A DNA stretch of 38,133 bases from an uncultured Selenomonadaceae bacterium. Its GTDB lineage: Bacteria; Bacillota; Negativicutes; Selenomonadales; Selenomonadaceae. Location: the NCBI GenBank assembly GCA_905234705.1, contig CAJOIB010000042.1, positions 1 to 38,133 on the forward strand. The letters run 5' to 3'. Both the position numbers and the translations under genes were made by a program. Position 1 is the first letter of the stretch; each line of letters starts with the position of its first letter. Below, piece by piece: positions 11,698-25,317 of the stretch. The notes under the pieces were generated by a model. The model was given only the letters and a program-made list of their open reading frames with translations. It was not told the DNA's origin and did not search any database.

Positions 11698-12462
11698 GTG
11701 ATAATTTTGCGTTTTATTGGCGTAATTTTTTTTGCCGCCGCGATTTTTATTTTTATGACGCCCGCGCCGGAAGGTTTTCCGATTTTGGAATATCATACAA
11801 TCACAAATCACCCCGACCCAAGCTCCGAAATTTACAACGTACCGCCCGCTGAATTTTCCGCCCAGCTTGATTATCTGCAAGAAAACGGTTATACTACGAT
11901 AACTTTGAAGGATTACGCACGCGCGCGCCGCTTCGGTGAGCCTTTGCCCGATAAGCCGATTATTTTAACTTTCGACGACGGTTATGCCGATAATTATGAC
12001 GAAATGCTCCCAATTCTTGAGGCGCACGGTATGAAGGCTGTAGTTTTCGTCATCACAAATGAGATTGGCAAGAGCGGCTATCTGTCAATGTGGCAGCTTA
12101 AAGATATGCAACGGCGCGGCGTCGAAATTGGCTCACATACCGCTGACCATTTGCCGCTAATTACTTTGAGCGACGAATTTTTGATTAATCAGATTCGCCT
12201 GTCGAAGATTTTTTTGGAATGGAGCGGGATTGAGCCGGTGGCGAGTATGTCTTATCCAAACGGCGTCTACAATTCACAGATTATTGAAATGCTCGCGAAG
12301 GAAAATTATTTAGCGGCGGTAACCGGCGAGGCGGGCTTGAATACGCTTGAAACAGATCCGTATAGATTGCGGCGCGTTCATATCCGTAAGCCGCATTTTG
12401 GCGTCTATGAATTTCGTTGGCGGCTTATGAAGGCTGAAATTTTCGCAAAGTTGAAAGGTTGA
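11698..12462 (+). CDS. Polysaccharide deacetylase (NodB domain)
   Basis: ILTFDDGYADNYDEMLPIL, EIGSHTADHLPL, MSYPNGVYN; N-terminal membrane anchor. Confidence 0.88.
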   Translation: MIILRFIGVIFFAAAIFIFMTPAPEGFPILEYHTITNHPDPSSEIYNVPPAEFSAQLDYLQENGYTTITLKDYARARRFGEPLPDKPIILTFDDGYADNYDEMLPILEAHGMKAVVFVITNEIGKSGYLSMWQLKDMQRRGVEIGSHTADHLPLITLSDEFLINQIRLSKIFLEWSGIEPVASMSYPNGVYNSQIIEMLAKENYLAAVTGEAGLNTLETDPYRLRRVHIRKPHFGVYEFRWRLMKAEIFAKLKG

Positions 12463-12468
12463 CAGATA

Positions 12469-13569
12469 TTGAATTGGGCAAAAAAATTATTCGTAACGGC
12501 GATAACGCTGGTAACTTCAATCACGGCGCTACCTGTATTCGCGAAACCGTTTGAATCCGAAATTATGCACAGGCTGCCCGTTGAAGTCGAAGATACCGGC
12601 GGGACGCTGATTTTTTCTGACAGCCCCGAATACGTCACGCGGGACGGCATTTTGTACACCGACACCGTTAAGGGCGACGCGCGGATTCTGTTTTATCATC
12701 TGAATAATACCGGCGTTCCGAAAAAAATTGCTGTGGTTGTCGAAAATATTTCCGGCGGCAATAACACGATTGAAATCACGCGCGGCGGTTTTTCTGCGCC
12801 CAGCGATAATTTTTTGTGGGTCGGCAAGGAAACTCAGCTGAAGTATATGAAAAATCGTTTCCACGACACAATTCGCTTTCTCAAAAACGGGCGCAAACTT
12901 TTTCAGCAAAAAATGGACAGGACGATTATTCAGCCAGGGCATTTGGTTTACGGCGTGTACGACTTCAAAACCAGCGCGCCGGTTAGAATTTTCGTGCTTA
13001 TGTATCCTGTGAATGTCAATCCGCTCGAATTTATCAATGACGCCGAGATTTTGCCGAAAGACGAATATCAACTGCGCGGCACTTTTAAAAATATGAATCG
13101 CGTTATCAGTTTGAAAGGTGAGTACAATCCGGAGACTGACGGTATCGGCTACGTTTTGATTGGTGACGACGCGACCGATTTATTTAGGCGAGGCATTGAC
13201 GCAACCGACGGCTCTGAAACTGTCAACGTTGGCAATTACGGTATCAATTACATTTTGAATTTTAATACGAAGGCTGATACGCGATTTTGCTTGAGCCCGC
13301 TCGGCGGCACTTACGCGGGCGCGATGAGTTTTTACTACAACAAAAAACGCGGTACGATTTTGACGCCGCGCAGTAAACTTTATTTTGGCGATAAAACGCC
13401 GTCCGAGCCCGAAGAAGTTGCACGTGAGCGCGAAAAGGGCACGGCTTTTTGGACGAATTTTTTAGAAATTAGCGAATTGGGAAAATACAACGGCGAAGTG
13501 CGCTTTGAATATTCGCCGCCTGGCGCTTCAAATTTGCCGGTTCATATTGTTTTGATGCCTACCGATTGA
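12469..13569 (+). CDS. Secreted protein of unknown function
   Basis: Signal peptide KKLFVTAITLVTSITALPVFA; no domain recognised; TTG start 6 nt after the deacetylase stop. Confidence 0.75.
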   Translation: MNWAKKLFVTAITLVTSITALPVFAKPFESEIMHRLPVEVEDTGGTLIFSDSPEYVTRDGILYTDTVKGDARILFYHLNNTGVPKKIAVVVENISGGNNTIEITRGGFSAPSDNFLWVGKETQLKYMKNRFHDTIRFLKNGRKLFQQKMDRTIIQPGHLVYGVYDFKTSAPVRIFVLMYPVNVNPLEFINDAEILPKDEYQLRGTFKNMNRVISLKGEYNPETDGIGYVLIGDDATDLFRRGIDATDGSETVNVGNYGINYILNFNTKADTRFCLSPLGGTYAGAMSFYYNKKRGTILTPRSKLYFGDKTPSEPEEVAREREKGTAFWTNFLEISELGKYNGEVRFEYSPPGASNLPVHIVLMPTD

Positions 13570-13581
13570 GAGGTGTTTTCT

Positions 13582-14025
13582 TTGAAAATTTTGGCGCGTC
13601 AACTGACGTTGGACTTATACAACTGCAACGAAAAGAAATTAACCGATTTAGACGCCGTTAAAGCGGCGCTACGGGGGGTTTTCGGCACTGAGCCAAGTAT
13701 TATGTCTACCGCCCTCGACAATGAGCACTACGCCCTTGTAGGCGCGTTTAAAGAGGGACACGTTGCCATTCACATTTACTTTGCCTTTCGATACGTCTCG
13801 GTGGATATTTTTACTTGCCACGAGAGCGAAGAATCCGAGGAACTTTCCAAAGTTTTGAGCAAATATTTTCAGCCCGAAAAAACTAAGTCCACATTTCTGA
13901 AACGCGGCGATTTCGGCTTGGAAAAAGACATTATGCCAAAAATTATTACGCGCGTTGCGCCGCTCCGGAAAGTTCGCAATGTCAGCGCAAGAGTTGTTAA
14001 AACACTGATTCGGAGGGGCAATTAA
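13582..14025 (+). CDS. SpeD-family (AdoMet decarboxylase-like) protein lacking the pyruvoyl Ser
   Basis: LTLDLYNCNEKKLTD...KEGHVAIHIYF...VSVDIFTCHE aligns with SpeD [11 protein letters not shown]...[8 protein letters not shown]. A GTG at 13573 is an alternative start. Confidence 0.75.
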   Translation: MKILARQLTLDLYNCNEKKLTDLDAVKAALRGVFGTEPSIMSTALDNEHYALVGAFKEGHVAIHIYFAFRYVSVDIFTCHESEESEELSKVLSKYFQPEKTKSTFLKRGDFGLEKDIMPKIITRVAPLRKVRNVSARVVKTLIRRGN

Positions 14026-16122
14026 ATGACTTTCACCGATATAACCAACCAGTACCGCAGTATCGGCAAATCTAAAAAATGTACGTTTATTTTCTGCGCG
14101 GATCACGGCGTGGCAGATATGAACGTCAGCGCGTACCCGCAATCCACGACTGCCGGTATGGTTAAAAATTACCTTGTCGAACGCGGCGCGGCGGCTAACG
14201 CTTTTGCCAAATTCGCCAATTCTGAATTGGTCGTTGTCGATGTCGGCGTCAAGGCTGATGTTTCAAATGTTCCTGGGCTTGTCAATCGGAAAATCGCTAA
14301 TGGCACTCAGAATATCGCTGAAGGTCCGGCTATGACTAAGGCGCAGGCGAAACAGTCAATTAAAATCGGCAAGGATATGGTTAAAAAAGCCGTCAAGGCG
14401 GGCTATAATTGTTTTTTGATTGGCGAAATGGGAATTGCGAATACAACGGCTGCTTCGGCGATAACCGCGGCGATTTTGGAACTCAATCCCAAAAAAGTTA
14501 CCGGTCGCGGCTCGAATATTTCTGACGAGCGCTTGAAAAATAAATTAAAAATCGTGCGAAAGGCGCTGAAAGTCAACAATCCAAATCCGGACGATGCCAT
14601 TGACGTTTTGGCGAAAGTTGGCGGCTTTGAATTTGGCGCGATGGCTGGCGTGATTTTGGAGGCGGCGCGGCATAATTGCGTTGTGATTTTGGACGGCTTT
14701 AACACGGCGGCGGCGGCACTCTTAGCTGATTTGATTGATCCAGAAATTTGTTACAGCGTCATTGCCTCGCACGTTGGGCGCGAAATTGGGCATTTGGAAA
14801 TTTTGAAATATCTTGAACTTGAGGCGATGTTCACGCTGGATTTGGCGCTGGGCGAAGCTATCGGTTCGTCAATCGCGGTTAGAATTTTGGACAGGCTTGT
14901 TTACGTTTTTGTTTGCGGTTCTGACGACGATTTTCACGGCAACCTCGACGAATTTAAGGAAACCGACAATGAAGAGGCGATTGTTTCAAATCTGCTTGAC
15001 AAAATCGGCTTGAGCGAAATGACGCACATTGAGACGCTTGACGAACTCGAAAATTATCTTGAGAAAAATTTTGAGGGCGACATTCAGATTGAAGAAGTTG
15101 ATTTAGATTTTCAACTGAGCGACGACCGCCGCCTTGAGACTTTCAACGCGCCTTTCAGCGTGCAGGATTTTAATATTCCGCGCTCGTATCCTATGAATGT
15201 TCGCGAAATGGGCACTGAAAATGACGAAGGCGTTGCTGCGTCCGATCGCACTTTTAATTTTTATCTTGAGACGATGCCGCATTTGAATTTGAAGGCTATG
15301 GAGCGTTGCCGCGAATACATTGACAATCTTACTAAGCCGCAGAAAAGCCTGGGCTTGCTCGAAGATATTGCCGCGCAATTTTCCGGCATTACGAATAATG
15401 AGCGCCCGCTGAATAATCTTCGCCACGCCGCGCTCGCCTTCACAAATTCTGAAAATGTTCCTAACGGCGCTGTGAATAGTCGCAACACTTACAGCAAGAA
15501 ACATCCGCGGCAGAATGCGCCTATGGATTTTAGTATGACGGTGCGGACTTTCGCTATGAAGATTTTTATGGGCGTGGTTGATTCTAAGCAAAATCCGAAT
15601 GTGGCGTTTAATTTTGGGCGGACGATGGCGGAAGAAATTTCATTTGGCGTACCGATTTTGGCGCTGACACTTTTAAGCGATTGGCGGCTTGATAAAATTG
15701 ATGAGAGATTCGCGCGGGCGCTGCTTGACAAGGACGGCGAATTTAAAGTTGAGCCGGAAGAATTTTTAATTCACGTACCGAAAAATTTTCGCTGTTTGAC
15801 GAGTGCGATGATTGGCGCGATAGTTGCGGCGGCGCACAATTCGACTTTCATTGTGATAGACAGCGGCGCGGTTGAGATTATCGCGCGGTATGTTGAAAAA
15901 ATTTGCCCGCAGATTCGCCCGTTTATTTTGCACGCGACCGATTTGATTAATTATGATTTTAAGCCGGACGCGCCGCGGATTGGCTTTGACGGCGAGGCGG
16001 CTTGTATTGGCGTTGAGATTGTCGAGGCGGCGCTTTGTGCGCTTAACGAAATGAAAACTTTTGGCGATACAAGCGTTGACGTGGCGATTGACGGCGAAGG
16101 CGCGGGAGTTCAAACGAAATGA
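14026..16122 (+). CDS. Tandem CobT-like (nicotinate-nucleotide:dimethylbenzimidazole phosphoribosyltransferase family) protein, 698 aa
   Basis: First module: FCADHGVADMNVSAYPQSTTAGMV, GEMGIANTTAASAI, KVGGFEFGAMAGVILEAA, ASHVGREIGHLEILKYL, LALGEAIGSS. Second module: LTKPQKSLGLLEDIAAQFSGI plus degenerate core. Confidence 0.82.
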   Translation: MTFTDITNQYRSIGKSKKCTFIFCADHGVADMNVSAYPQSTTAGMVKNYLVERGAAANAFAKFANSELVVVDVGVKADVSNVPGLVNRKIANGTQNIAEGPAMTKAQAKQSIKIGKDMVKKAVKAGYNCFLIGEMGIANTTAASAITAAILELNPKKVTGRGSNISDERLKNKLKIVRKALKVNNPNPDDAIDVLAKVGGFEFGAMAGVILEAARHNCVVILDGFNTAAAALLADLIDPEICYSVIASHVGREIGHLEILKYLELEAMFTLDLALGEAIGSSIAVRILDRLVYVFVCGSDDDFHGNLDEFKETDNEEAIVSNLLDKIGLSEMTHIETLDELENYLEKNFEGDIQIEEVDLDFQLSDDRRLETFNAPFSVQDFNIPRSYPMNVREMGTENDEGVAASDRTFNFYLETMPHLNLKAMERCREYIDNLTKPQKSLGLLEDIAAQFSGITNNERPLNNLRHAALAFTNSENVPNGAVNSRNTYSKKHPRQNAPMDFSMTVRTFAMKIFMGVVDSKQNPNVAFNFGRTMAEEISFGVPILALTLLSDWRLDKIDERFARALLDKDGEFKVEPEEFLIHVPKNFRCLTSAMIGAIVAAAHNSTFIVIDSGAVEIIARYVEKICPQIRPFILHATDLINYDFKPDAPRIGFDGEAACIGVEIVEAALCALNEMKTFGDTSVDVAIDGEGAGVQTK

Positions 16123-17240
16123 AAGCTATTACTAATGGAAAATTTATTTTGCCGGATTCTGCCGGTAATTTTTTTGTCGCTGAAGAAAAATATTTGACAT
16201 TTGGCGATAAGATTTTAGCGATTGGCGACACGACGGCGGCGAAAGAAATTATTGACGCGGCAGGAAATTTTGTTGCGCCTGGCTTTATCAACATTCACAT
16301 TCACGGTTGTGCGGGCTTCGACGCAATGGACGATTCGCCCGACGCTTTGAAAAAAATTTGTGAATTTCTGCCGAGTACTGGCGTTACTAGTTTTCTGCCG
16401 ACGACTATGACGATGCCGCTTGAAGATATTCACCGCGCGCTGAAAGATATTCGCGAAACGAAATGCGGCGGCGCTAAGATTCTCGGCGCGAATGTCGAAG
16501 GTCCATTTATCAGCGAAAAGTACAACGGCGCGCAGGATAAAAAAAATATTCGTCGCGCAGATTTGACTCTGTTTGACGAATTTATTGACGTGATTAAAAT
16601 TATTACCGTTGCGCCCGAAGAAATTGATTTTGAATTTATTGACGCTTGCGTTGCGAAAAATATAATTGTGTCGATAGGTCACAGCGCGGCGGATTATGAG
16701 ACTGCGAAATTGGCGATAGAGCGCGGCGCAAATCATATTACTCATTTATTTAACGCGCAAACCGGCTTACATCACCGCAAGCCTGGGATTGTTGGGGCGG
16801 CGCTTGACACCTGCGCGACGGTTGAGTTAATCGCGGATAATGTTCATGTTCATCCGGCGGTTCAGCGAATTGTCTGGATGGTTAAGCCGCGCGGCGAGAT
16901 TATTTTGATAACGGATTCATTGCGGGCTTGTGGCTTAGGCGATTGCGAAAGTGAATTGGGTGGGCAAAAAGTTTTTGTGCGAAATGGCGTGGCGAAATTG
17001 GCTGACGGCACTATTGCGGCGAGCGTTGCGCCTATGAATGCCGTGGTTAAAAATTTCCAAAAAAATACGTCCGCGGAAATTGCCGCCGTGGTCGAACTTG
17101 TCACGAAAAATCCTGCGCGAGAGCTCAAGGTTTATGATAAAATCGGCTCATTGGAAATCGGCAAATCTGCAGACATTGTTATTTTTGACAAAGATTTTAA
17201 TATTCAGCGCGCCATTATCAACGGAAAAATTTCAGTTTAA
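16119..17240 (+). CDS. nagA: N-acetylglucosamine-6-phosphate deacetylase
   Basis: NIHIHGCAGFDAMD, GANVEGPFIS, SIGHSAADYETAKLAIERGANHITHLFNAQTGLHHRKPGIVGAAL. Confidence 0.93.
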   Translation: MKAITNGKFILPDSAGNFFVAEEKYLTFGDKILAIGDTTAAKEIIDAAGNFVAPGFINIHIHGCAGFDAMDDSPDALKKICEFLPSTGVTSFLPTTMTMPLEDIHRALKDIRETKCGGAKILGANVEGPFISEKYNGAQDKKNIRRADLTLFDEFIDVIKIITVAPEEIDFEFIDACVAKNIIVSIGHSAADYETAKLAIERGANHITHLFNAQTGLHHRKPGIVGAALDTCATVELIADNVHVHPAVQRIVWMVKPRGEIILITDSLRACGLGDCESELGGQKVFVRNGVAKLADGTIAASVAPMNAVVKNFQKNTSAEIAAVVELVTKNPARELKVYDKIGSLEIGKSADIVIFDKDFNIQRAIINGKISV

Positions 17241-17265: not shown

Positions 17266-17299
17266 AAAAAATCCCGATTATCAGTCGGGAATTTTTTTT
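17266..17299. terminator. Bidirectional rho-independent terminator between nagA and lon
   Basis: AAAAAATCCCGA-TTATCAG-TCGGGAATTTTTTTT. Confidence 0.8.
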
Positions 17300-23167: not shown

Positions 23168-25317
23168 ATAGCGATAAGTAGGGCTTTGAATTTATCGCTG
23201 CCTTTTCCCCCGCTCCGCACCGTACGTGCGCCTTTCAGCGCATACGGCGCTCCATCTTTCACTTCTACTTTCAATCTAATCAGTTTACCTTAAAATTTCA
23301 TTTCCAGCTTTTTGTCTGATTTTGTTGCTAAGATTAAGTTATCGTAGTCGTCCTTGCCGCCTAATATCCGTGATGTAATGTGGTTATATCTTCAGCGGCT
23401 GTGAACTCTTCGCCAGTTACTGCACATTTGCCCTTCTGAGTGTTGTATAGCGAAATGCGGTTGTCTGCGTATTCTATGCTCCGTCCGTATAGTGGTTGCT
23501 GTAATAATTTAATGCTGATTGTGTCATAGTCCCTTTCATATGTTCTGCTTGTTTTATTCCTTGGATTTTTATGTTGTACATAACTAATTGGGTACATTAG
23601 TTCGTTTGCTATGTATTGTAGCATTTTAGATTTGCCATACCGCGCCATTTCAATTTTGGTGAGATTGCGTCCCGTTCGCTTGACGTCTAGTTTGTGCGTG
23701 ATAATACTGTGAACTGCTTGACTGATTTTATTGCAGTCTAAATTAATAAGCGTCGCTATTTGGTAGTAATTTTGTACGCCTCTAACCATTGCGTTGTATA
23801 AGTGGATTTCTCCCATTAGCTTGTATTTTGGTCTAGGGCGTGCCATATGTTTTATCTGCCTTTTTAGTTTCTGCGTTATTATTTTGACTTTTTTGTCTGT
23901 GATATGAGATTTAACAACTTGTTTGTTGCCTTTCGGGTGGACTTTGATTTTGAAACCGAGAAATTCTGAGTATTTGCGCTTGACATTAACCACCCGTGTT
24001 TTGTCTGGTGATACTTCTAATTTCAGTCGCTCCGTTAGCCATTGCGTTATTGCAATTTTGGTTTTCTCAGCGGCTGTCTTTGTTCTACAGAATATCCTGA
24101 AGTCATCAGCGTATCTAACAGTGTACATCTCCTTCAATTTGGTCTTGCGCATTGCTTCATAACCGTGTCCCTTATTCTTTGTGCCCGTCGGATTGATTTT
24201 CCCTTTGTATTTGTCGATTATGGGGTTTTGTTCCCAATTATTTTCAACCCAATGGTCAAGTTCGTTTAGTACGATATTTGCTACTTGTGGAGTGCCTTTG
24301 TTTGGATATATGAGTTTGCCATTTTCTTTAATTGGCGTCTTGAGTATGCGCCGGATTTTATTTAGTAAGTGTCGGTCTCTTATTCCTAGCGTCCACATTT
24401 GGCGTATTAATTTTGAGTGATTAACATTGTCGAAGAATTTTCTGATGTCAAATTCTATTACAAAGTGTAAGTGTCCGCGTTGCATTCTCAGTTCCGCATC
24501 CGCTATTGCATTTTCAACTGATTTACCTGACCTGAAACCGTAACTGTGCTTACTAAAACGTGCTTCACATTACGCCTAATAGGTTTCGGGCGGTAACCGT
24601 GCTTACTTCCTGATACTATGAATTTAACTTTCTCGACAACTTCATCTGCGTTAAGTTTCTTAATGTCATTAATGGTAAGTTTGTCCGTTCCGTTATTCTT
24701 AATGTTCCGGTATGCAAGCAGAATATTTTCGCGGCTAAAAACAATTTCCATTAGGTTTGTAAAAACGCCGCCGCATTTTGCTTGCTCGTAAAGTTCGCTG
24801 TAAATGTTATTTTCTGGCAAGTGGCAACACCTCCTTAGGTGCTCCTTTTTGTCGTGCTCGAATCCCCTTTCAACTGTTGATTGATTGTTAAAGTAAAAGA
24901 CTTGAGCCCATTCCTCCAGCGCCATCCTATCTGTACATTTAGCCTTAGGTCTTTGCTATGAGCCTGCAAGCTTGCCAATGCCCGTAACACTACTGGGTTT
25001 TTCATAATCAGGATTTTTACTAGCCCTACTTGCAACTGTTATCAGCTAAATACATTTCTGTATTTTCGCCATTTAGACCCGTACACTCACAAATTCGTCA
25101 GTTCCGTGTGAAACATTCTAACCATAGCTAATTTATAGACTAGGATACACAACTCACCGCTGAGCCGCTAATGTTACGGTATCTGTCCGCCGCCTTTAAC
25201 GGGCTTCTAACATTACTGCTAGCCATGGGCGCTTCGGGGCGTTACTCCTTCATTTCACCCTTCGGATAATCAGTTCGCTTTACGCGCAGTATCTTTTCAA
25301 TACTGAACATGTCGCAC
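23168..25317 (-). mobile_element. Group II intron (with RT/HNH ORF), inserted between tig and a hypothetical gene
   Basis: 5' end GTGCGAC at 25317; domain V AGCGCCGTATGCGCTGAAAGGCGCACGTACGGTGC at 23217-23251; domain VI-like stem AGCGATAA...TTATCGCTAT; 3' end approximate. Confidence 0.85.
23361..24925 (-). pseudogene. Group II intron reverse transcriptase/maturase, disrupted
   Basis: Split across ORFs 24503-24925 and 23361-24485. YADD present; CEARFSKHSYGFRSGKS recovered only by joining frames; HNH tail GGKDDYDNLILATKSDKK also out of frame. Confidence 0.85.

Follow-up and report, generated by a model that had tools for sequence, protein, structure and literature searches.

A SpeD-like protein with glycine at the pyruvoyl serine position and a basic C-terminal tail: a probable pseudoenzyme in the Negativicutes

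Results

A SpeD-like gene in an apparent operon

The window, a stretch of 38,133 nucleotides from an uncultured Selenomonadaceae bacterium (assembly GCA_905234705.1, contig CAJOIB010000042.1, forward strand), carries an apparent operon that begins with a polysaccharide deacetylase gene and ends with nagA (Table 1). The gene under study, which encodes a SpeD-like protein, lies between a 366-residue frame, kept together with its neighbours across the genus, and a gene for a tandem CobT-like protein. The first half of the CobT-like protein lacks the 43 N-terminal positions of the CobT profile, which are present in the second, degenerate half. Similar tandem CobT-like frames of 630-690 residues were found elsewhere in the Negativicutes, and we take the protein to resemble a fused ArsA/ArsB-type pair. 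The named close relatives of the locus come from six uncultured Selenomonadaceae rumen MAGs (deer, sheep, reindeer and buffalo samples). The window also holds two matches to group II intron RNAs (Intron_gpII, group-II-D1D4-5), at 23168-23252 and 25132-25278 (-).

An earlier reading of this DNA, made from the sequence only, placed the start of the SpeD-like frame at GTG 13573 (13573-14025, 150 residues). TTG 13582 is the likelier start, as the GTG falls inside a putative ribosome-binding site, GAGGTG, and the relatives begin with MKILARQ. Residue numbers below follow the 150-residue form.

Table 1. Features of the SpeD-like gene and of the apparent operon around it
Feature	Position	Strand	Remarks
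Polysaccharide deacetylase	11698..12462	+	Gene 1 of the apparent operon
366-aa gene	12469..13569	+	5' of the SpeD-like CDS in the operon; no Pfam or NCBIfam family matched
GAGGTG, Shine-Dalgarno-like	13570..13575	+	6 nt 5' of TTG 13582; overlaps GTG 13573; predicted from sequence
SpeD-like CDS	13582..14025	+	147 aa plus stop from the likely start TTG 13582
AdoMetDC-fold core, residues 5-115	13585..13917	+	PF02675 match 11-112; AlphaFold pLDDT mostly >90 in strands; Foldseek
Gly62 (GGA)	13756..13758	+	At the pyruvoyl/autocleavage serine position (T. maritima Ser63)
His67	13771..13773	+	Equivalent of T. maritima His68; H in 139/143 family members
Cys82	13816..13818	+	Equivalent of catalytic Cys83; C in 104/143 members, F in 20
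Basic C-terminal tail, residues 116-150	13918..14022	+	Class-specific; net charge +8; strand 123-128; lower-confidence helix 136-148
Tandem CobT-like (DBI_PRT) protein, 698 aa	14026..16122	+	Operon partner; ATG immediately after the SpeD-like stop (TAA)
nagA (N-acetylglucosamine-6-phosphate deacetylase)	16119..17240	+	Final gene of the apparent operon
Terminator-like stem-loop with T-run	17272..17290	+	3' of nagA; weak: regional count not above shuffles

Homology, fold and active-site residues

The translated frame matched PF02675 (AdoMet_dc) with E=2.6e-15 and 57.1 bits, against a cut-off of 25, and TIGR03330 with E=5e-13 and 49.3 bits, which is below the equivalog cut-off of 75.65. A phmmer comparison with Thermotoga maritima AdoMetDC gave E=1.9e-5. 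The AlphaFold model had T. maritima AdoMetDC (1vr7) as its best Foldseek match (probability 1.00, TM-score on the target 0.82), and the matches listed also include the non-processing S63A mutant of that enzyme and the trypanosome prozyme heterodimer. The protein thus has both the sequence profile and the fold of the AdoMet decarboxylase superfamily, and its homology to SpeD, as the sequence-only reading had proposed, is by these comparisons far above chance.

In the phmmer alignment the ESH of the T. maritima enzyme is paired with EGH, which places glycine where the pyruvoyl-generating serine would be and bears out the replacement named in that reading. Residues 47-75 contain no serine, threonine or cysteine, so that realignment brings no alternative residue to the cleavage position, and a different cleavage-site serine was accordingly rejected. 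With Gly62 and no nearby nucleophile, the sequence supports the earlier proposal of a SpeD paralogue that does not process itself. Of the other active-site residues, the histidine and cysteine were correctly said to be kept. The W-P-E motif is gone, as had also been stated, and Y69 F70 A71 stand in its place; its two changes differ in extent, in that W to Y is near-universal across the class-wide family described below, whereas the E was lost specially in this branch and is retained by many relatives in the genus (HVYKELRY). Measured against SpeD as defined by TIGR03330, the His68 and Cys83 equivalents are present, and the pyruvoyl serine, W-P-E and an equivalog score are absent. Ser63, which SpeDA and SpeDC retain, is likewise missing.

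A basic tail specific to the class

Beyond the core the protein continues into a tail with the consensus RGDFG..DMKPK.K....APLRRV.NTGAKV. Across the family it averages 36 residues and a net charge of +9.8, and the minimum charge is +6. The core is modelled with high confidence and the strand and helix of the tail with moderate to low confidence; a deeper alignment of 125 sequences gave the same result. Three residues, D14, R111 and P122, are invariant in the family, the latter two by the tail, and C18, T107, H63, H67, G112, D78 and Y16 are nearly so. Within the tail, positions R132, G138 and K121 hold one residue in more than 80% of members.

When 200 genomes were sampled across the phylum, 138 had a match to the family profile. 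Matches from the same class alone covered the tail, reaching about position 146-150; the rest ended at about 110-128 and were ordinary SpeDs. Two matches from outside the class reached about position 140, and did so only by reading through an in-frame stop. On this evidence the basic tail defines the family and is without counterpart in the SpeDs sampled elsewhere in the phylum. The sequence-only reading had noticed neither the tail, under stronger constraint than any other new feature of the protein, nor the class-wide family and its repeated loss of serine.

Distribution in the Negativicutes and loss of the serine

A profile built from 41 relatives (A1) was used to search 251 Negativicutes genomes and found the family in 238 of them, including 194 of the 197 genomes with completeness of 90% or more and contamination of 5% or less. 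The gene is single-copy in nearly all; a few genomes have a weaker second match, which is another SpeD or a fragment at a contig end. One partial second copy (G006, L066 6173-6346, at the end of contig 57), in which the start of a CobT-like gene is fused to an internal segment of the SpeD-like gene, was set aside as a probable assembly artefact. Phage or plasmid relatives of the gene were looked for and none was found.

The 143 distinct members have Gly at the cleavage position in 88 cases, Ser in 41, Cys in 4, Thr in 4, Ala in 3, and His, Phe and Val in 1 each; the tail-less SpeDs have Ser there in 22 of 22. Counted by genus, 46 have Gly and 30 Ser, the remainder having another residue or a mixture. 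The sequence-only reading had anticipated a clade with conserved glycine, and one exists: Gly is present in every member examined of the window's genus and in each of the 19 genera sampled from its family, which rules out a sequencing error or a mutation private to one genome. Cys83 is retained in 104 of the 143 and Glu72 in 72, and only 24 combine Ser63, His68, Cys83, Glu72 and Ser/Thr55, as against 22 of 22 ordinary SpeDs.

A family tree built without the cleavage column requires a minimum of 11 switches between Ser and non-Ser. This count is independent of the root, and cannot alone separate loss of the serine from gain; that every outgroup SpeD has Ser favours loss, and hence a serine that was lost many times in the family rather than once. 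Among the Gly-bearing genes of this branch dN/dS is about 0.09-0.17 (about 0.1 between the window gene and its nearest relatives). Such purifying selection with glycine in place indicates a working protein.

Gene neighbourhoods

The sequence-only reading had put weight on the CobT-like operon partner. A CobT-like gene does adjoin the SpeD-like gene in nearly all genomes of the window's genus, but not in a divergent member (G003), at 13 loci of other genera in the same family, or in the rest of the class, where the tandem CobT genes sit apart from it. Outside the genus but within the window's family, the surrounding genes vary (lgt, mqnA, dnaG-rpoD and ileS, by sequence inspection). In most other families the gene is divergent beside a nitronate-monooxygenase-like gene, followed by a flavodiiron protein and then ctsR-mcsA-mcsB(-clpC), names that likewise come from reading the sequence. 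A CtsR-box pattern was sought in the 500 bases upstream of 22 genes and was matched at one only (L063), which lends no support to a functional tie with the stress operon. No neighbour is common to the whole family, and a constant functional partner was therefore rejected; with neighbours that vary and no adjoining CobT-like gene outside the genus, the operon partner cannot explain the family.

Relation to polyamine synthesis

A canonical SpeD of E. coli type (TIGR03331) scored above its cut-off in 30 of 61 relatives. It belongs to a different class, is about 260-300 residues long, and in the loci examined is never adjacent to the tailed protein. In some members of the genus its neighbours are speE, an agmatinase-like gene and one for a PLP-dependent decarboxylase, so that in those sister genomes AdoMet decarboxylase need not come from the tailed gene. 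It was not found in the window's own genome; in that genome the matching contig ends near the site that the gene occupies in a near sibling (G006), and the assembly may not have captured it.

In 17 other genomes of the genus (G009, G010, G012-G014, G016-G018, G020-G023, G026, G027, G030, G031 and G033; drafts, completeness 59-96%) speE is present, and a cross-reading by hand revealed no E. coli-type SpeD, ordinary SpeD or nspC above cut-off. All 17 retain the Gly-bearing tailed protein. The nucleotide-binding motif of speE, GGGDGG, was intact where examined (loci L138-L143, L150 and L151; G009, G010, G013, G016, G017, G023, G033 and others). With speE intact and no other SpeD detected, a source of decarboxylated AdoMet is wanted in these genomes.

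Discussion

The SpeD-like gene works, but apparently not by pyruvoyl decarboxylation. The explanation that we favour, with moderate confidence, is that its product descends from SpeD but is a pseudoenzyme whose function is binding, through the retained fold and the basic tail. The AdoMetDC beta-sandwich would be kept, while neither self-cleavage nor a pyruvoyl group would occur, and a protein of this kind would decarboxylate neither AdoMet nor arginine nor ornithine. Its body would present a conserved face formed by His63, His67, Tyr69, Tyr74 and Asp78 and would probably be dimeric, like its relatives, and the tail may dock onto a protein or polyanionic partner such as nucleic acid, the ribosome or the envelope. 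A serine-less SpeD fold joined to a conserved, positively charged tail in nearly all Negativicutes suggests that the fold has been put to a new use other than decarboxylation. This claim is firm only for the members that lack the serine: with 41 members that carry it and 24 that have the full set of residues, the family may still hold active decarboxylases, and the retention of His67 and Cys82 could hint at residual chemistry.

A broader proposal, which we put forward tentatively and consider less likely than not, is that a change of function preceded the loss of the serine and took in the entire Negativicutes family, along with the members that still carry Ser. The SpeD fold with its new tail would then have become a binding protein characteristic of the class, for example in polyamine-related work at the cell wall or ribosome, leaving the serine free to vanish at least 11 times.

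Those 24 complete members, together with the 17 genomes that have speE and no other SpeD, are what could be expected if the family were still an AdoMetDC, or a SpeD-derived arginine or ornithine decarboxylase, to which a tail had been added, with the Gly-bearing members making the cofactor in some other way. We regard this as unlikely, given that S63 of the T. maritima enzyme is required for pyruvoyl formation (PMC10407285) and that Glu72 and Cys83 are not retained family-wide. Loss of catalytic residues might also be read as a gene on its way out. With dN/dS low, reading frames intact, the gene present almost throughout the class and non-catalytic residues invariant, that is hardly credible, and for practical purposes purifying selection refutes a pseudogene.

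The same 17 genomes weigh differently on the idea of an activator that, as in trypanosomatids, pairs with the active SpeD of the cell (here of E. coli type) and raises its activity. The trypanosomatid prozyme is also unprocessed (PMC5201418), our protein appears from its sequence to be an unprocessed AdoMetDC paralogue, and about half of the relatives do have a canonical SpeD with which it might pair. That SpeD is, however, of another class and, in the loci examined, never adjacent to the tailed gene, and at least 17 genomes of the genus keep the tailed gene with no other SpeD detectable, although an activator that depended on its partner should have gone there; such a role is therefore improbable. 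Still less do we expect the protein to be a subunit working with the CobT-like protein in activation of the cobamide lower ligand. The two genes abut in the window and are neighbours throughout most of the genus, but the tailed family is class-wide, the linkage is confined as described above, and a shared operon may serve expression only.

Among the known systems closest to it, the pseudoenzyme that we propose shares with bacterial SpeD of class 1b (TIGR03330, PF02675; T. maritima TM0655, PDB 1vr7/1tlu) the fold, the histidine of ESHxxIH, Cys82, the Y-x-x-x-D region and the length of the core. It differs in the change of Ser to Gly and of W-P-E to Y-F-A, in its TIGR03330 score below cut-off and in the addition of a 35-residue basic tail. 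The trypanosomatid AdoMetDC prozyme is likewise a paralogue of AdoMetDC fold that is unprocessed and lacks active-site residues, but is a larger protein of eukaryotic type that activates its paralogue, whereas the gene here is retained without one (PMC5201418). SpeDA, SpeDC and the SpeD1-SpeD2 fusions are also extra SpeD homologues of altered function. SpeDA and SpeDC retain the pyruvoyl serine; in the Victivallis vadensis fusion the C-terminal SpeD domain has lost critical residues and cannot cleave itself, but it is a fused domain and not a free-standing, tailed protein found class-wide (PMC10407285). A weak Foldseek match (TM about 0.4) was to the N-terminal domain of human spermine synthase (PDB 3c6k), which serves dimerisation (PMC11203672) and differs in being fused to an aminopropyltransferase. 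The prozyme and these two domains are precedents for reuse of the AdoMetDC fold in the absence of its cofactor; no precedent among them is bacterial, free-standing and equipped with such a tail. Dead AdoMetDC paralogues are known from trypanosomatids and as fused domains. We found neither a free-standing, class-wide bacterial example nor a description of the Negativicutes tail family in the freely accessible literature, although this does not establish that the family is new.

Because the serine was lost again and again within one orthologous gene, the family forms a natural series in which one can ask when and why an enzyme ceases to be one. It also bears on annotation in a class to which common bacteria of the gut, the rumen and the mouth belong. 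No fewer than seven Gly-bearing members (G037/L040, G040/L038, G041/L046, G045/L048, G052/L039, G057/L052 and G060/L050) exceed the equivalog cut-off of TIGR03330 and would be annotated as AdoMet decarboxylase, which makes predictions of polyamine pathways in the Negativicutes unsafe.
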